A DNA stretch of 64,000 nucleotides from Lunularia cruciata (Eukaryota > Streptophyta > Marchantiopsida > Lunulariales > Lunulariaceae): positions 3,038,001 to 3,102,000 of the forward strand of contig OX419760.1 in assembly GCA_948567375.1 (NCBI GenBank), written 5' to 3'. Below are positions 15,287 to 32,982 of the stretch, piece by piece. A model generated the notes under the pieces. It ran no database searches, had not been told where the DNA came from, and was given only the letters and a program-made list of their open reading frames with translations. Position 1 is the stretch's first letter; each line of letters starts with the position of its first letter. Position numbers and translations under genes: made by a program.

Positions 15287-15361
15287 ATTATTGTAACAAT
15301 ATGGAGTTTAGTGACGAAGTTAGTCGGGCTTACGAAGTAGAGAATAAGACAAAATAGCCTA

Positions 15362-15570
15362 GAATATTCTAGAAGCATCTAAGAAACTTCTTAGGAAGCT
15401 TCCCAACTAGTAACTTGCGCCCTAAGCAGGTAGCTTCTAGAAGGAAGCTTCTAGAAGCTTCTAACTAGCTTAGCTTGCACGCCAAGTAGGTGACTTCTAG
15501 AAGGAAGCTTCTTGAGAAGCTTCCCAGTTAACTTGGCTTGCACTCCAAGAAAGCGGCTCAAGGAAACTTC
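15362..15570 (+). promoter_or_regulatory. heat-shock-element arrays in the LTR U3
   Basis: Alternating nGAAn units define heat-shock elements. Perfect arrays: GAA-ta-TTC-ta-GAA (15362-15374, three units) and GAA-gc-TTC-ta-GAA-gc-TTC (15444-15461, four units). Imperfect clusters are at about 15495-15525 and 15563-15572. All lie upstream of the TATA box. Heat-shock factors bind such arrays, and the heat-activated copia element ONSEN of Arabidopsis uses LTR HSEs. Heat induction of this element is inference from sequence. Confidence 0.75.
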
Positions 15571-15601
15571 TTGAGAAGCTTCAAGGGTCTTGTATGCTAC
15601 C

Positions 15602-15609
15602 TATAAATA
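15602..15609 (+). promoter_or_regulatory. TATA box of the LTR promoter
   Basis: TATAAATA sits 141 bp downstream of the four-unit heat-shock element. Transcription would be expected to start about 25-35 bp further on. The same sequence occurs in the 3' LTR. Confidence 0.75.
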
Positions 15610-15714
15610 CCAAGGCCGAAGCTCATGCTAGGCATTCGGAGTTTTCCCTCATTCAAGTGTCCCAATGTGAGTTTCCATTCTCCTATTTCTCTCCTCGGTT
15701 TTGGTCTTTTACAT

Positions 15715-15726
15715 TGGTATCAGAGC
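15715..15726 (+). promoter_or_regulatory. primer-binding site, initiator tRNA-Met type
   Basis: TGGTATCAGAGC begins one nucleotide after the end of the 5' LTR. It matches the tRNA-Met PBS used by many plant LTR elements. Confidence 0.9.
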
Positions 15727-15984: not shown

Positions 15985-16884
15985 ATGGCAGCAATACCGG
16001 ATGTTATCCTTGCAATGCAACAACAAATCGAGCATCTTACTCGATTGTTGGATGAACGAGACCAGCAACGACGAGAACAGATAGAGAGAGCGCCAGTTCG
16101 AGATGGAGAAGATCGCATTCGATTTCCAAAACCCAAGGTGTTTGAAGGCAAGAATCTTCCAGGCACAGTGGAGAATTTTGTGTTTGACTGTGAACGTTAC
16201 TTTGAAGCCACCAATCTTCAAGATGAGCGGAAACAAATTCTCTTGGCTTCTAGTCAATTGGATGGAGTGGCAAAACTTTGGTGGCGATTCCGAGTAGAAA
16301 GAGCTGAACGACAAATTGTTACACCAATTTTTACATGGGCAGAATTCAAGGATGCAATACTTGGTCGATTTCAGACTATAAATGCCACCCGAGCTGCACG
16401 AGATAAATTGGCGGAGTTGAGGCAGATTGGCTCAGTGAGAAGCTACATCACACAATTTCAGAATATCATCATGCAAATTCCAGATATCCAAGAAGGTGAA
16501 GTTCTGGATCGATTTGTGCGAGGATTGAAGTCACGAACCAGATTGGAGGTGACCATGCGAGAGCCACAGAATGTAGAACAAGCCATGCAATTGGCTGAGC
16601 GTTTTGATTCCTTAGTTGCGACAACTTGGACTCGACCTCGACCTACACAAAACCCACCAGTACCACAAGTGGAAGAACCGGTACCAATGGAGATTGATGC
16701 TATCCAACGAAGACCACTTGGCACAGCAGATAGAGAAAGATTACGACAAAATGGAGGTTGTTTTTATTGTCGCCAGTTGGGGCATCGCATTGCTGAATGT
16801 CCACTCAAGAATGGACGACCTCGACAAGTTGCCCAAGTGGAGGTTGTGGAGCGGAATGATCAGGGAAACGAGGAATCCCAGTAG
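15985..16884 (+). CDS. gag: chromovirus Gag
   Basis: 299-aa capsid/nucleocapsid precursor that packages element RNA. The ATG at 15985 is the first in-frame start after stops in the leader. It has a coiled-coil-prone N-terminus (MQQQIEHLTRLLDERDQQ), a retrotransposon Gag core around FVFDCERYF...LWW.F...W..F, and a CCHC zinc knuckle near the C-terminus (CFYCRQLGHRIAEC, CX2CX4HX4C). The frame is intact. It ends at TAG 16882-16884, inside the stem of the frameshift pseudoknot, so most translation should stop here and give free Gag. Confidence 0.93.
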   Translation: MAAIPDVILAMQQQIEHLTRLLDERDQQRREQIERAPVRDGEDRIRFPKPKVFEGKNLPGTVENFVFDCERYFEATNLQDERKQILLASSQLDGVAKLWWRFRVERAERQIVTPIFTWAEFKDAILGRFQTINATRAARDKLAELRQIGSVRSYITQFQNIIMQIPDIQEGEVLDRFVRGLKSRTRLEVTMREPQNVEQAMQLAERFDSLVATTWTRPRPTQNPPVPQVEEPVPMEIDAIQRRPLGTADRERLRQNGGCFYCRQLGHRIAECPLKNGRPRQVAQVEVVERNDQGNEESQ

Positions 16885-17390
16885 GAGATTTCGAGCCGCC
16901 TACTGGGAGCTTGATTAGTTCCAATGGGATTGAAGGCTCGACCTATGCAAGTTTGCTTCACTTGCAAGGTATGATATCTAATCGGGGTTGTAGAATTTTG
17001 GTTGATTCTGGAAGTTCAAAGAATTGCATGTCTATGCAAGTAGCAAAGGAATTGGGTATTCCTATCAAGCCAGTGATTGGAAGTAGTTTGATGATGGCGG
17101 ATGGTAGAAAGGATTCTGCATTCCGCACCTTGCATCCTGTTACCTTCAAGATTGGGAAGGAGTATTTGGAGTGTATGAGGTTTGTAGTGGCACCTCTACA
17201 CTATGATATCATTCTGGGTCTACCTTGGCTTGAATGTCATAAGGTTCAATTTGATTGGACCCGACACCAAATTCAAGTACAACACCAAGGTAGGAATTTC
17301 CGATTAGGTTGTCTGGCACCTCTGAGTAAGACACCTAAGAATAGTCAGTCCCAAGATGGGAAGTTTGTCGAGAAGGTAGCCATAGAGTGA
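16860..17390 (+). pseudogene. chromovirus protease and linker (pol, first part)
   Basis: Aspartic protease that would mature the polyprotein, read in the -1 frame relative to gag and entered by frameshifting, not by its own start codon. The catalytic motif is VDSGSSKN (Asp codon 17004-17006). The family hallmark ILGLPWL lies downstream near 17210. The frame ends at TGA 17388-17390 inside the first unit of the 60-bp tandem repeat. Unit two reads CAA at the aligned position, so the TGA is likely a later lesion. A 1-nt deletion in the third unit then moves the rest of pol to another frame. Confidence 0.85.
16863..16941 (+). promoter_or_regulatory. -1 ribosomal frameshift signal: slippery site plus H-type pseudoknot
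   Basis: GGGAAAC (16863-16869) is in the gag phase G GGA AAC, the X XXY YYZ form. The spacer GAGGAA is 6 nt. Stem 1 pairs TCCCAGTAGG (16876-16885) with CCTACTGGGA (16899-16908), ten perfect pairs. Loop bases TCGAGCC (16891-16897) are complementary to GGCTCGA (16935-16941), giving a 7-bp stem 2. Loops are 5, 1 and 26 nt. The protease frame is -1 relative to gag and open from 16860, so the 25-nt overlap contains the slip site. Frameshifting itself is inference from this match. Confidence 0.88.
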
Positions 17391-17519
17391 ATCTGGAAGG
17401 GAGATGAGTCCCAAGATGGGAAGTTTGCCAGGAAGGCAACCATGGAGCAAGCTCGGAAGAGAGATGAGTCCCTAAAAGGTAAGTTGTTAATGAAGCAGCC
17501 ATAGAGCAAGCTTTAGAGG
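17341..17519 (+). repeat. three 60-bp tandem units in the protease-RT linker
   Basis: Units at 17341-17400, 17401-17460 and 17461-17519 share 'gatgagtcccaagatggg' and 'ggaag..agccat.gagcaagct'. The first two are 60 bp, 20 codons, so repeat number can vary without changing frame. The third is 59 bp, causing the frameshift, and is the most diverged. They would encode a charged, flexible linker. Confidence 0.85.
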
Positions 17520-17539: not shown

Positions 17540-18733
17540 GTGTGGATCAAGCCAATTGCACAAGAACAATCTAAGGAGGGCCAAGTGCCGCATCAAGCGA
17601 CGGTTGATTGGATAGTTCAAGAGTTTTCAGATGTGTTTCCAGATGATCTGCCAAAGGGATTACCCTCTGATCGAGGTATGCCCTTCAAGATCGAGTTATT
17701 GCCAGGGAGTACTCCAGTGAGTAGACCAATCTATCGGCTCTCACCAAAGGAGTTGGAGGAGTTGCGAACAACACTTACAGAGTTGTTGGAGAAGGATTTC
17801 ATACGACATAGTACCTCTCCTTGGGGAGCACCGGTACTATTTGTTCCAAAGAAGGATGGAGAACTTCGTTTCTGTATTGATTACCGTGGGCTCAATAAGC
17901 AAACCGTGAAGAACGCATATTCCTTGCCTTGGATCGATGACTTGCTTGATCAATTAAGTGGAGCACGATACTTTTCCAAGCTAGATCTTCATAGCGGCTA
18001 TTGGCAAATTCCTATTGAAGGAGAGGACGTGAAGAAGACTACCTTTCGTACAAGGTATGGACATTTTGAGTGGAGAGTTCTACCTTTTGGACTCACTAAT
18101 GCTCCAGCAGTCTTCATGGATCAGATGCATCGGGTGTTGGAGGGCCTATTGGATCAGTCTGTGGTAGTGTTCTTAGATGATATCTTAATCTATAGTAGGA
18201 CAGAGGCAGAACACATGAATCATGTGCGAGAAGTCCTAAGACGACTACGACAGTGGAAATTTTACTGCAAGAAGTCAAAGTGCGCTTTTTGGCAAAAGGA
18301 GGTTACCTTCTTGGGTCATAAGATCTCATCAGAGGGGATCAAGATGGAAGAAGAGAAGATCAAGGCCATTACTAATTGGCCTACCCCGAAGGATGCTACC
18401 AAAGTACGAGCGTTCAACGGATTGGCCAGTTTTTACCGACGGTTCATCCACTATTATGCTCACGTGGCTGCACCATTGACTGACCTCTTGGGAAAGAACT
18501 CGAGCTTCCAATGGACCACCAAGCATGAAGAAGCATTCCAGAAGTTAAAGCATATGGTGTCTTCAAGACCCATTCTTCAACCATATGATCCTCAACTACC
18601 TTGTGTGGTTGATTTTGATGCTTCTAACTTTGCAATTGGAGTTGTGTTGCAACAAGAATTTCCAGATGGACTACATCCTATTGCCTTTGTGTCTCGCCGA
18701 CTAAATACAGCTGAAAGAAATTACTCTGCTTGA
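17540..18733 (+). pseudogene. chromovirus reverse transcriptase and start of RNase H
   Basis: 397-codon open stretch; the frame is open upstream to about 17500. RT motifs in order: the [14 protein letters not shown] lead-in, [32 protein letters not shown] and the catalytic FLDD (18170-18181). The connection contains LGHKIS. RNase H begins with VVDFDASN near 18610. The frame stops at TGA 18731-18733 between 'YSA' and 'DRE'. This is one of several nonsense codons in this otherwise young copy. RT catalytic residues look intact. Confidence 0.92.
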
Positions 18734-19615
18734 GATCGGGAACAACTTGCAATGGTATATGCCACCAAGGTATGGAGGCATTATCTCTTGGGGAAACAAG
18801 TGATCATGCGAACTGATCACAAGCCATTGTTGCAGACCTTACACCTAGAGCACATGAAGAGTCGACATCATCGATGGGAAGAGCAACTCCAATTGTTCGA
18901 CATCAAACTTGAGTACAAACCAGGTTGGTTCCATGTCATCCTTGATGCTCTATCACGACGACCTGATTTGAAGTCTCTTCCTCTCATCGCGGCAGCAATT
19001 ACGACAGTGTCAATTGATCCCAAGATTCATAACGAGTTTCGGTTAGCCCTGCAGCAAGATCCCTTCTTCCAAATGGTACACGGTCGTCTAACAGCACGCG
19101 ACAAGGAGTACAACACCTTCTCCTTCAAGGAAGGCCTTTTATTCCATGCAGACCAGATCTATGTTCCAACCAAAGGTGATCTTCGACTTGTGCGCCTTCA
19201 AGAAGCCCATGATTTACCAATAGCTGGTCACATGGGAGTGGACAAGACCTTGGGCACCCTCCAATGCCAATGGTGGTGGCCCAACATGACACGAGATGTT
19301 CAAGACTTTGTCCGATCATGTGAGAGTTGCCAACGGAACAAGGCCAGCAACCAGAAGCCGAGTGGACTCCTTCAACCACTCGCCATTCCATCCGCTCGTT
19401 GGGAGCATGTGAGCTTGGATCTCATCACATCCTTGCCAAAGACAAAACAAGGACACACCGCAATTGTGGTGTTTGTGGATAAGCTTAGTAAGCAAATCCA
19501 CTTGGCACCAACCTGTGATACCGTGGATGCTCCAACCTTAGCGCAAATCTACTTCGACAATGTCTTCAAGCATCATGGGATGCCACGTGTACTCATCTCC
19601 GACCGTGATCCTTGA
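18734..19615 (+). pseudogene. chromovirus RNase H (C-terminal part) and integrase (N-terminal part)
   Basis: Continues in the RT frame after the TGA: RNase H motifs MRTDHKPL and DALSRRPD, then integrase. The HHCC zinc domain is intact (HDLPIAGH...CESCQRNK). The first catalytic Asp is in SLDLITSLP and the second in LISDRDP. The stretch ends at TGA 19613-19615 directly after LISDRDP, where the family usually has Arg. CGA to TGA is the simplest explanation. Confidence 0.9.
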
Positions 19616-20575
19616 TTTACCGGGAAGTTTTGGCAAGCACTCTTCCAGATACTCGGCACCAAGCTTGCTTTGTCCACGGCCTATCATCCTCAAACTGATG
19701 GACAAACCAAACGCGCCAATCGTACATTGGAGGATATGTTGCGGGCCTTTGTCAATGTCCACCATACCAACTGGGATGAATGTCTTGCAGCTACAGAATT
19801 TGCCTACAACAATTCCAAACAGGCAAGCACTGGATTTTCTCCCTTCTTTCTCAATTTTGGCCAAGATCCGCTTGTTCCAGATTCTCTTCTTGCTCCCCCT
19901 CCCTCTCAGGTTCCTCATACTTCTACATTCTTGACCACTATATCCCAATCTCTCCAACAAGCCAAATCTCACCTCCTTGTTGCTCAGAATTGCCAAAAAC
20001 AATATGCAGACCATCATCGTCGTGATCTCACCTTTGAAGTTGGTGATAAAGTCATGCTATCCTCTAGTAACCTCCCTCTCCCACTTGATACCCAAGTTCG
20101 TAAACTTGCTCCTAATTGGATAGGACCCTTTGATATCACCCACATTATCTCTCCTGTTGCTTATCGTCTTGCCTTACCTTGTCACATGCGTATCCATCAT
20201 GTCTTTCATATTTCCAAGTTGAAACCCTTTGTTCCTAACCCTTCTTCCTTTTCCTCTCGAGTCCAACCTCCCCCTCTTCCTGTCCCTATCAATGATCATG
20301 AGGAGTACAAAGTTAATTGTATCCTTGCGTGTCGCCATATTCAACGAGGCCGTCACCAACATCCGGAGTACAAGGTCCTTTGGAAAGGGTATCCCCTTCA
20401 TGATGCTACATGGGAACCCCTTTCTCACCTCCAGAATGCACAGATGGCCATCAAGGAATTTGAAGCTTCACTGGCGACGAGGACGTCACCAACTAGCGGC
20501 GGGGGAATATGTAACAATATGGAGTTTAGTGACGAAGTTAGTCGGGCTTACGAAGTAGAGAATAAGACAAAATAG
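19616..20575 (+). pseudogene. chromovirus integrase C-terminus with chromodomain
   Basis: Same frame as RT. The segment HPQTDGQTKRANR has Lys (AAA, 19709-19711) where gypsy integrases have the third catalytic Glu (usual QTE), so the enzyme should be inactive. The GPF..I module and IHHVFHISKLK follow. A chromodomain lies at about 20300-20478 (EYKVLWKGYPLHDATWEPL), which in chromoviruses directs insertion by binding modified histones. The ORF runs into the 3' LTR to 20575. Confidence 0.92.
20494..20509 (+). promoter_or_regulatory. polypurine-type tract before the 3' LTR
   Basis: A GCGGCGGGGGAATA-type purine-rich run ends directly at the TG of the 3' LTR. It would prime plus-strand DNA synthesis. 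Confidence 0.7.
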
Positions 20576-20931
20576 CCTAGAATATTCTAGAAGCATCTAA
20601 GAAACTTCTTAGGAAGCTTCCCAACTAGTAACTTGCGCCCTAAGCAGGTAGCTTCTAGAAGGAAGCTTCTAGAAGCTTCTAACTAGCTTAGCTTGCACGC
20701 CAAGTAGGTGACTTCTAGAAGGAAGCTTCTTGAGAAGCTTCCCAGTTAACTTGGCTTGCACTCCAAGAAAGCGGCTCAAGGAAACTTCTTGAGAAGCTTC
20801 AAGGGTCTTGTATGCTACCTATAAATACCAAGGCCGAAGCTCATGCTAGGCATTCGGAGTTTTCCCTCATTCAAGTGTCCCAATGTGAGTTTCCATTCTC
20901 CTATTTCTCTCCTCAGTTTTGGTCTTTTACA
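20510..20931 (+). repeat. 3' LTR of the chromovirus
   Basis: 422 bp, apparently identical to the 5' LTR except for one base near the U5 end. The perfect heat-shock elements are at 20580-20592 and 20662-20679. Confidence 0.95.
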
Positions 20932-20936
20932 ATTAT

Positions 20937-27140: not shown

Positions 27141-27242
27141 AACAAAAAACCAAAAAATATGGGCATCACAAACACACTTGGACTTCTTGTAGTAGAATTT
27201 CCTTTGTCATGATCGTCTCAAGACTTATGGGATGTTGTTCTT

Positions 27243-28303
27243 TTATTTTGCTTCCATCTTTCTATAAATCCAAATGTCATCCAAGAACACTAGCATGTAC
27301 CAATATAATAGCCCATTTAACACCCAATGCATTTGATCCATGAAGACTATTGGAGCATTAATGAGCAAAAAAGGTAAAACTCTCCATTCAAAATGCACAT
27401 ACCATGCAAAAAAGGTAATCTTTTGCATATTTTCTCCATCAATTGGAATCTACCAATAATTACTTTAAAGATACAAAATTGGAGAAGTATTGTCTTCTAC
27501 TTAATTGATCACACAAGTCATCAATTTGAGGTAAGGGATATGCATTATTCATAATTTGTTTATTGAGACCTTAGTAGTTATACAAAAGCAAAGTCCTTAA
27601 TCCTTCTTTGGTACAAATAGTACTAATGCTCCCCGAAGGAATGTATTATGTTGTATGAAATTCTTCTCCAACAATGTGATCTTGTTCAAAAAGTTAAGCC
27701 TAAAATGTAAAATATTTACCTAAGTGAAATGTCACTTTGGTAGTACATGGACACAAAAATCCTAATAGTTTAGGGAAAATAAATTTGGTAATCTATAGAT
27801 TCCATCCATTCCATTCTTGCTCTATTACAAATGTAAAAGACCAAAGAAAGAAATAAGAAAATAGAAGTTTAGAGTGGAAGATCACATTAGAACTCTCACG
27901 TGAGTGAAAATCCAAATGCCTAGCATGAGCTTGGGTTTTGGTAATTATAGTGAAGAAATATAAGGTTTTTGAGAACCTTCCTTCTCAAAGCCGCCTTCTT
28001 TGCATGCAAGCTAAGTTAACCAAGAAGCATCTAAGGAAGATTTCTTTTAGTAGCGGTATACTTGGAGAGCAAGCTAAGCTAGCCAAGAAGCTTCCTTCTA
28101 AAAGCCATCTAATTGGTGTGTAAGCTAAGCTAGTTATTAACTTGGTACACAAGTTACCCAATCCTTGAAAGGTACATAGATGCTTCTCACCAAGAAGTTT
28201 CTTAGGTGCTTATACAAAATTATACCAAGATACTTTCAAGATGCTTCTAGAACATTCTTAGAATTCCTAACTCATTAGTCTTTGCTATCTCCATAGTACT
28301 ACA
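27243..28303 (-). mobile_element. internally deleted chromovirus relative: LTR, PBS, leader, RT fragment
   Basis: The minus strand has an LTR at 27832-28303, a decayed tRNA-Met PBS next to it (27819-27831, TTTGTAATAGAGC) and a leader like that at 15720-15850. Then a jump to the RT region, at about 27700, bypasses all of gag and protease. The RT fragment at 27243-27428 reads [10 protein letters not shown]...FMDQMHWVL...VFLDD, so the catalytic DD is still visible. Stops are present. The deletion junction is direct LTR/leader-to-RT, as in derivatives made by template switching or later deletion. Confidence 0.8.
27832..28303 (-). repeat. diverged LTR of the chromovirus family
   Basis: 472 bp; TGTAGTACTATGGAG start and CTTTTACA end in sense orientation, collinear with 15292-15713. 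The first heat-shock element is intact on the plus strand as TTC-ta-GAA-ca-TTC (28245-28257), although flanking sequence has diverged. The four-unit array has decayed. Confidence 0.8.
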
Positions 28304-31737: not shown

Positions 31738-32982
31738 TCAGTGCAGTAATCTTCTAAGAAAGCTGCGAGTGTCAGCAATCGCCGTTATTCCGGGAGAATC
31801 TGTCATATCAGCAGCTGGAGGAGCGATGCCAGACTCTCCCTTCCCTTGGGTTAACCATGCAACGCCTGGTACATCTTCGTATACATATCCAAAAGCAGTC
31901 ATGTCCAGCGCGTCCCTCGCTTTCATCCTCCTCAGAACAATATTCTCATCGTAGAAAAGGAACTCAGCATCTAAGAAATCAGTGTCCGTAGGATATGAGT
32001 TGTTTGGAGAAAGATTGTGCCAGACATCCCATAATCTATCTATGTTTTCATGATGGGGATAAAATAACGGATCCCCTGCAGCGGTCGAAAAGTCATCCAT
32101 ATCTACTCCGACCCACTTGTGGAGAGCTCCGTGAGCGGCGACCTCCAAGGTTCCAGCTCCAACATATGGCGTTACCCTTGGGTATCCAGCTCTATATGTT
32201 CTACCTGAGAAACCTACCGTCCAATTATTCAGTGTGATCATACTCCAGCGCATGACTTCCAAATTTCTGGCCCTGGTTACCTCTTTACTAAATCCTCCGG
32301 GAAGCTTTGAAGGATTCCAAGCATCCACCCATAAATCTGCAACCAAATCAGGATCATGACTCCTGTTGTGCCGCATGTGATGATAGGTTGACTTGGTTGG
32401 ATCATTATACATTTGAGGTAGAAGATCACCAGGTTTTTTGCAGCCACCCTCACCAGCATTATCCCAGTTCCAGAAGTGGAGCGTGAACGTGGGATCGTCG
32501 AGCAAAGTTTGGAGAATACGCTCGTGAAAGTAGAGGAAGAATCGGTGAAAAGGATAGAAGAGCCAGCCAAAGTGGATATCGAGTCCAACGCCTTGATAGG
32601 TGTATGCACCGGTAGAGTGCGCACAGTGAGTCATCCGATGTTGTTCCAAATTTCGAGGGTCGTCAACCGGCAGAGCACGCATCAGCTCATAACCTCTCCT
32701 TAGCTTGGTGACATAAATCTCGAGCTCCTCTCCTTCTAGACATTGTACAGCTTTTCTAACTCTGAGGGGCTGCGACAAGTTTCGGACGGGTTTAAACTCG
32801 ACAATTGGCCCTTTGGGCATAGGAGGACAACAATGCGTCAGGGGTCCGTCGTCTCCAAGTCCTACTCTACCAGGTCTACATCCCTCGAAAGTAATTTTCA
32901 CAGGTGCTCCCTGAACCCAAGACGAGAATGCGATAGCGAGGAGAAGGCAAACCCATGTGATTCTACTGGACAATCTGTCCAT
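31738..32982 (-). CDS. PPO: secreted polyphenol oxidase (tyrosinase/catechol oxidase), intronless
   Basis: 414-aa type-3 copper enzyme oxidising phenols to quinones. Residues 1-25 form a signal peptide (VCLLLAIAFSSWVQG), so secretion or vacuolar targeting is likely and no plastid peptide is seen. N-terminal Cys35, Cys51, Cys52 and Cys120 match the conserved disulfide Cys. CuA ligands: His119, His137, His146 (IHFGWLFYPFHR). CuB: His284, His288 (HGALHKW) and His310/311 (DPLFYPHHENIDRLW). The putative water-keeper Glu280 is present. Odd points: the family's thioether Cys in HCAYC is Ser123 (HCAHS). The protein ends soon after a DWL-like segment (LFYDENIVL...GYVYEDVPGVAWL), without the C-terminal KFDV shielding domain, so it is about 150-180 residues shorter than typical plant PPOs. 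N-glycosylation sequons occur (for example Asn206, Asn253). The ORF is unbroken. A spliced 3' exon was not found. Confidence 0.93.
   Translation of the reverse strand: MDRLSSRITWVCLLLAIAFSSWVQGAPVKITFEGCRPGRVGLGDDGPLTHCCPPMPKGPIVEFKPVRNLSQPLRVRKAVQCLEGEELEIYVTKLRRGYELMRALPVDDPRNLEQHRMTHCAHSTGAYTYQGVGLDIHFGWLFYPFHRFFLYFHERILQTLLDDPTFTLHFWNWDNAGEGGCKKPGDLLPQMYNDPTKSTYHHMRHNRSHDPDLVADLWVDAWNPSKLPGGFSKEVTRARNLEVMRWSMITLNNWTVGFSGRTYRAGYPRVTPYVGAGTLEVAAHGALHKWVGVDMDDFSTAAGDPLFYPHHENIDRLWDVWHNLSPNNSYPTDTDFLDAEFLFYDENIVLRRMKARDALDMTAFGYVYEDVPGVAWLTQGKGESGIAPPAADMTDSPGITAIADTRSFLRRLLH

Follow-up and report, generated by a model that had tools for sequence, protein, structure and literature searches.

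The chromodomain Ty3 element in the window (the whole stretch of DNA analysed, 64,000 nucleotides of Lunularia cruciata contig OX419760.1) very likely uses programmed -1 frameshifting at a GGGAAAC heptamer near the end of gag. This reading is drawn from the rarity of the frameshift module, the lack of indels in it among close genomic copies, the split of the gag and protease frames in every copy compared and the tail shared by Gag homologues. We hold with good confidence that production of Gag by ordinary translation, and of Gag-Pol by a programmed -1 frameshift, would best explain the arrangement, as far as sequence can tell.

The element measures 5,640 bp overall, LTR to LTR. Its 5' LTR (15292..15713, + strand) and 3' LTR (20510..20931, +) are each 422 bp long, run TG...CA and show one mismatch, and a 5-bp target duplication, ATTAT, lies outside both (15287-15291 and 20932-20936). 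The sequence after the 5' LTR holds a primer-binding site, TGGTATCAGAGC (15715..15726, +), which we take to be of the tRNA-Met type, and a purine-rich tract precedes the 3' LTR. The gag ORF (15985..16884, +; 299 aa, stop TAG 16882-16884) encodes a capsid and one CCHC knuckle, with Pfam matches to Retrotrans_gag, Ty3_capsid and zinc knuckle. It is followed by the protease frame (16860..17390, +; -1 relative to gag, stop TGA 17388-17390), the reverse transcriptase / RNase H part of pol (17540..18733, +; stop 18731-18733) in a frame that differs from protease, the RNase H end with the integrase start (18752..19615, +; stop 19613-19615) and the C-terminal part of integrase (19670..20575, +) with a chromodomain at about 20306-20467. 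Pfam domains in pol are aspartyl protease, RVT_1, RNase H, integrase zinc domain, Tf2-type SH3 and chromodomain, and the order PR-RT-RH-INT-chromodomain between the LTRs is that of a chromovirus (Ty3/gypsy). When the chromodomain is aligned to solved chromodomains, the aromatics of EY and LWKGY align (Group I, aromatic cage), at what we presume to be the positions of the cage residues.

The pol of this copy is broken, with stops at 17388, 18731 and 19613 and reverse transcriptase out of the protease frame. A near-tandem repeat of ~60 bp marks the end of protease (17347-17512; 79% over 108 bp), and the integrase-chromodomain frame ends inside the 3' LTR, ~66 nt in (20510-20575). The LTRs differ at 1/422 bases despite several pol stops and the frame break; a source element that was itself damaged may have given rise to this copy by mobilisation in trans.

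At the gag/protease junction the slippery heptamer G_GGA_AAC (16863..16869, +) stands in gag phase, its Z base not being G, and a 6-nt spacer (16870..16875, +) separates it from stem 1. The 5' arm of stem 1, UCCCAGUAGG (16876..16885, +), contains the gag stop and forms 10/10 Watson-Crick pairs with the 3' arm (16899..16908, +) across a 13-nt loop. Within this loop lies the 5' arm of stem 2, UCGAGCC (16891..16897, +), which makes 7/7 pairs with its 3' arm downstream (16935..16941, +). The predicted geometry is that of an H-type pseudoknot, with an S1 of 10 bp, an L1 of 5 nt, a junction of 1 nt, an S2 of 7 bp and an L3 of 26 nt. The -1 frame is closed by a stop at 16857, just upstream, and then stays open from 16860 to the following stop at 17388; gag and protease overlap by 25 nt (16860-16884), and the first base of the gag TAG lies 13 nt past the heptamer. 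The initial annotation had described a GGGAAAC heptamer in exact X XXY YYZ phase with a 6-nt spacer, a perfect 10-bp stem and 7-bp loop-downstream pairing, a gag stop inside stem 1, an intact gag and a -1 protease frame open across the overlap. This anatomy was confirmed letter for letter, the arms of both stems being fully complementary.

In the proposed mechanism, most ribosomes would end at TAG 16882 and yield Gag, while a minority would go on to Gag-Pol. GGA would occupy the P site and AAC the A site as tRNA-Gly and tRNA-Asn slip back together by one base to pair with GGG AAA, and RNA structure starting 6 nt downstream would hold the ribosome during this tandem slippage. Stem 1 would be the most likely stimulator, and stem 2 would probably join it to form an H-type pseudoknot. 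After the shift the product is predicted to read ...DQGN-RGIPVGDFEPPTG... (DQGN-RGIPVGDF) and to continue into protease and the rest of pol; its tryptic transframe peptide would begin GIPVGDFEPPTG, with NDQGNR before. The junction anatomy, the frames and the conserved gag end can be read directly; the shifting, its rate and the fold responsible are what we infer from them. According to the available text of two papers, G_GGA_AAC is among the shiftiest heptamers on mammalian ribosomes, with G_GA a natural first triplet (PMC5009743), and a spacer of 5-9 nt is usual in plant viruses (PMC5382211), a range that includes the 6 nt seen here.

We examined how often such a module arises by chance, allowing a spacer of 4-10, a loop of 3-25 and a downstream reach of 60. 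Both strands of the window hold 445 X_XXY_YYZ heptamers. An S1 of at least 10 follows 2 of them, and an S1 of at least 10 with an S2 of at least 7 follows 1/445, the GGGAAAC at 16863. When the next 106 nt were dinucleotide-shuffled with the heptamer fixed, this pair of stems came up in 0/20,000 shuffles, an S1 of at least 10 alone in 2/20,000, and an S1 of at least 8 with an S2 of at least 7 in 1/20,000. The combination of slip site and stems is far beyond chance, in agreement with the very small probability that the initial annotation had assigned to all parts arising together.

Copies in the same genome display the same arrangement. A 1-kb junction used as query against the genome (565.8 Mb) gave 5,608 first-look candidates, 40 of which were scored. 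All 40 matched over the full length at >=99%; 37/40 are 1,001 bases long and 3/40 are 1,000 bases, two of the latter starting at query base 2 and the third (L030) lacking one base outside the module. Gaps between 16850 and 16950 occur in 0/40. Over the 1-kb stretch 17/40 have an unbroken gag frame up to the junction TAG and 23/40 meet an earlier stop; copies with the early stop are decayed and give no testimony for function. All 8/8 copies available with longer flanks, among them that of the window, have gag and protease in different frames; copies with both in one frame, named beforehand as evidence against the reading, were looked for in these eight and found in none. Together with the 0/40 module indels, this supports the -1 gag/protease architecture claimed for a plant chromovirus. 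Protease and reverse transcriptase share one frame in 7/8 copies, the exception being the window copy. A second -1 shift between the two, suggested by the window frames, was accordingly rejected, as the frame is shared in 7/7 other copies.

We extended the survey by 43 further junctions (20 via a P0001 search, 20 via an older relative, plus L044, L057 and L059), giving 83 rows in all, 66 of them distinct. The gag stop is retained in 82/83, and a gap falls inside the module in 3/83 rows. The heptamer reads GGGAAAC in 52, GGGAAAT in 8, AGGAAA[C/T] in 19 and otherwise in 4, so GGGAAA[C/T] is present in 60/83 junctions and lost in 23/83. In the codon ahead of the slip codons, CCG replaces CAG in 10/60 family junctions, with the G retained. 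The 8/8 copies, the 0/40 indels and the 83-junction survey indicate that the gag/protease frame arrangement is a family trait and not the property of one damaged copy. Decay or an assembly error in a single copy could break the frames as well, and the window pol is visibly damaged (two in-frame stops, the pro/RT frame break and the near-tandem repeat at 17347-17512). This cause is refuted by frames alike in 8/8 copies and by 40/40 indel-free modules, and homologous Gags end at a matching place; we give it hardly any credence.

Other elements and genes are visible in the window. An old Ty3 element at about 37-41 kb has a junction too broken to read. On the - strand at 27171-28135 a related element shows an LTR-like stretch (about 71%) adjoining an RT fragment (52% aa), with no gag or protease match beside the fragment. 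Positions 31738-32982 on the - strand hold an intact single-exon polyphenol oxidase ORF with, by eye, a likely signal peptide; the best solved relatives of its product are plant polyphenol oxidases, which by itself points to a plant host.

Homologous Gags carry the trace of the junction at their C-terminus. The first protein search returned 4 homologues and a profile search 58, taken from the best 8,000 candidates sharing most words; these searches cover proteins up to a certain length, and the counts therefore under-represent full gag-pol fusions. The window Gag ends Q-G-N-E-E-S-Q-stop, where G-N corresponds to the slip site, E-E to the spacer and S-Q-stop to the 5' arm of stem 1. A tail of the form [E/G]N-x-x-[S/P]Q-stop occurs in 21/58 homologues on other contigs, and P0023 ends in the looser GKDWTQ, making 22. 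All 22 of these tailed relatives have the same spacing between slip codons and stop. Their spacer dipeptides take 15 forms while the other tail positions are nearly invariant, and the residue before the tail is S, Q, P or E, every one of which has codons ending in G. Since the spacer residues vary and the rest of the tail is constant, the slip codons and stem arm seem to be fixed and the spacer free. The conservation, seen among distant relatives at the protein level, may also stem from the protease frame that overlaps the tail or from a requirement of the Gag protein. E-N in distant relatives would mean G_GAA_AAC rather than G_GGA_AAC, with a first triplet, G_GA, that is a known variant (PMC5009743). 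Scans of viral contigs yielded no DNA of distant relatives, and when P0002 was used as query against the genome that holds the window, none of the matches listed fitted it better than 53% along the main stretch, and loci of the known family came up among them again.

The tail is missing in 36/58 homologues, namely the near misses P0010 (ENYTPL) and P0033 (GNASQE) and 34 others, many of them cut short or from other lineages. By Pfam, at least three homologues (P0027, P0030 and P0049) are single proteins that hold both gag and protease, so the frame split is not universal in the superfamily. Two genome-contig loci, L001 and L002, were dropped from the counts as they share just the zinc knuckle with gag and resemble a non-LTR ORF1. 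Both are filed under an uncultured Trichormus genome; their sequence is like the ORF1 of a non-LTR retroelement, with CCHC knuckles, and perhaps represents contamination from a host plant. P0005 and P0050, whose longest contig is 2,727 bp in both cases, stand for a relative in which the protease ORF is predicted to start near the gag stop, which may hint at an overlapping start.

Pol could also be reached without a frameshift, if ribosomes reinitiated past the gag stop or began at an internal site. A downstream ATG in the protease frame is available for this (HLQGM in the window and in P0005; P0006 is predicted to start there), but predicted ORF starts are mechanical and reinitiation would yield Pol without Gag. 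Furthermore, it leaves unexplained both the in-phase X_XXY_YYZ heptamer at a fixed distance from the stop and the conserved EN-x-x-[S/P]Q tail, and we consider it very improbable. Splicing, in the style of Ogre or EVADE/BARE, might likewise join gag to pol or make a short Gag message, and the text available for other plant LTR lineages describes its use there (PMC6317226; PMC12786077). Here, however, the frames overlap by ~25 nt with no gap, and the constant slip-to-stop distance in the 22 tailed relatives argues against splicing as well, so we rate it even lower than reinitiation. Frameshifting at the heptamer remains our preferred reading.

Which RNA structure would stimulate the shift is less clear-cut. 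A competing nested fold spans 16874..16931 (+), with an outer helix at 16874-16880/16925-16931 and a helix at 16884-16887/16919-16922, and pairs the 5' arm of stem 1 differently. The nested minimum fold reaches -27.3 kcal/mol (z -2.62), and the S1 and S2 stacks total -38.1 kcal/mol; the pseudoknot therefore comes out ahead only with a loop cost of less than about 11 kcal/mol. In the nested ensemble 8/10 stem 1 pairs have a probability of ~0.62, and the outer two 0.14 and 0.28. Among the 66 distinct copies, pairs are kept in 630/658 cells for stem 1 (95.7%) and 438/461 for stem 2 (95.0%); when the partners are slid, only 216-388 cells pair for stem 1 and 61-205 for stem 2. Such retention is expected, because the structure was derived from one among these close copies. 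In the same 66 copies the nested fold keeps its two outer helices in 97.8% and 98.9% of cells and the inner one in 96.2%. The nested fold is thus about as stable and as well kept as the pseudoknot.

The initial annotation had proposed a search for covariation across genomic copies, and this search disclosed no excess at paired sites over background: over 946 variable-site pairs, pairing partners change together no more often than unpaired sites do. By double changes 16893/16939 ranks 326, 16881/16903 ranks 470 and 16892/16940 ranks 751 of 946, with a median log odds of 1.40. G>A and C>T make up 556/849 changes counted, which we read as decay by cytosine deamination. The G-C to A-T replacements at 16881/16903 and 16893/16939 looked compensatory but are not counted as such, as unpaired sites associate as strongly and G>A/C>T dominate. 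From these ranks, shared age together with C>T/G>A decay would be enough to account for the double changes at stem sites. Per site, distinct changes other than C>T/G>A come to 0.29 (heptamer), 0.83 (spacer), 0.40 (stem 1), 0.71 (stem 2), 1.0 (L1/L2) and 0.19 (L3), with 0.52 and 0.41 for the flanks. L3 is therefore the most conserved part of the module, and stem 2 columns are no better conserved than the flanks. A search of Rfam gave no match at the gathering score.

These data bear on whether the shift at GGGAAAC could do without a pseudoknot, its stimulus coming from the hairpin of stem 1 on its own or from the longer nested fold. The stability of the nested fold and its slightly better kept helices favour this, as does the old relative L059, where the nested helices retain 6/7 and 4/4 pairs and stem 1 9/10, against 3/7 for stem 2. 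Moreover, the 3' arms of the nested fold sit in L3. L3 also encodes the protease-frame residues SNGIE, found in P0005 too, which could by themselves explain its conservation. The nested fold is, besides, incompatible with the perfect stem 1, whose like came up in just 2/20,000 shuffles, and the pseudoknot is comparable once stem 2 stacks, given a loop cost under that limit. We regard stimulation without a pseudoknot as a serious though less probable alternative. Stem 1 is a likely stimulator, and for the full pseudoknot we see somewhat better than even prospects. Of the pseudoknot first annotated, then, both pairings stand as sequence, whereas its role as stimulator is plausible at best, with no covariation excess in its favour, stem 2 reduced in L059 and the nested fold in competition.

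In size and two-ORF plan the window element resembles SM-Tcn1 of the Tcn1 clade, to which it may or may not belong. In the text available on SM-Tcn1 of Selaginella, that element measures 5,704 bp with 440-bp LTRs and a 323-aa gag, against 5,640 bp, 422 bp and 299 aa here; its plan of gag in ORF1, PR-RT-INT-chromodomain in ORF2 and a 5-bp TSD matches that of the window (PMC2864245). No PBS was found in SM-Tcn1, in contrast to the presumed tRNA-Met type of the window element, and the word 'frameshift' is absent from the main text of that paper in its available form (PMC2864245). Most Tcn1 clade members are described, in the accessible part of another source, as self-priming and devoid of a tRNA-type PBS, and the chromodomain aromatic cage as reported in plants from non-seed species only (PMC6317226). 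The window element, with its TGGTATCAGAGC primer site, departs from the self-priming trait.

Plant LTR elements are mostly described as having a single gag-pol ORF, from which a -1 signal would depart. Sugar-beet chromoviruses of four clades, CRM and Galadriel included, are likewise chromodomain Ty3 elements, but their gag-pol is given as one continuous ORF in the available text (PMC3605345). Sireviruses and one other plant type keep gag and pol in separate frames as the window element does, with pol, however, in +1; the accessible portion of a 2016 review, referring to a 2003 survey, knows of separate frames in just these two plant types, +1 in each case (PMC5009743). The open-access literature, as far as its text was available, yielded no earlier account of -1 signalling for any plant LTR element. 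Such a signal in a high-copy family would explain how the Gag:Pol ratio is set, and the Gag-tail signature offers a simple route to further cases in protein data.

The heptamer itself is familiar from plant RNA viruses, as poleroviruses use GGGAAAC. Luteovirus and polerovirus -1 signals resemble the window module in having X_XXY_YYZ with a stem-loop or compact pseudoknot 5-9 nt downstream; these are, by the available account, RNA viruses with compact knots, whereas the window module has a 10-bp S1 and a 26-nt L3 (PMC5382211). The module also resembles that of PEG10, a domesticated sushi-ichi-type Ty3 gene of mammals, for which the accessible texts describe GGGAAAC, a downstream pseudoknot and gag followed by a -1 protease (PMC2800197; PMC5009743). 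The PEG10 spacer is 5 nt (PMC2800197) and that of the window element 6 nt. PEG10 is a mammalian gene whose shifting has been measured and is very high, as these texts report, while the window signal is a predicted one in a plant element. Tentatively, and with considerable doubt, we suggest that the GGGAAAC/GGAAAAC module with its fixed slip-spacer-stem-stop spacing could be an old shared trait of a chromodomain lineage of non-seed plants, inherited in common with the sushi/PEG10 branch. If so, plant LTR retrotransposons would have a first -1 case, and the PEG10 frameshift signal would be traceable far back in element history. A -1 signal in the family of the window element would offer a natural test case for frameshifting on the ribosomes of non-seed plants and a plant counterpart to the PEG10 signal.
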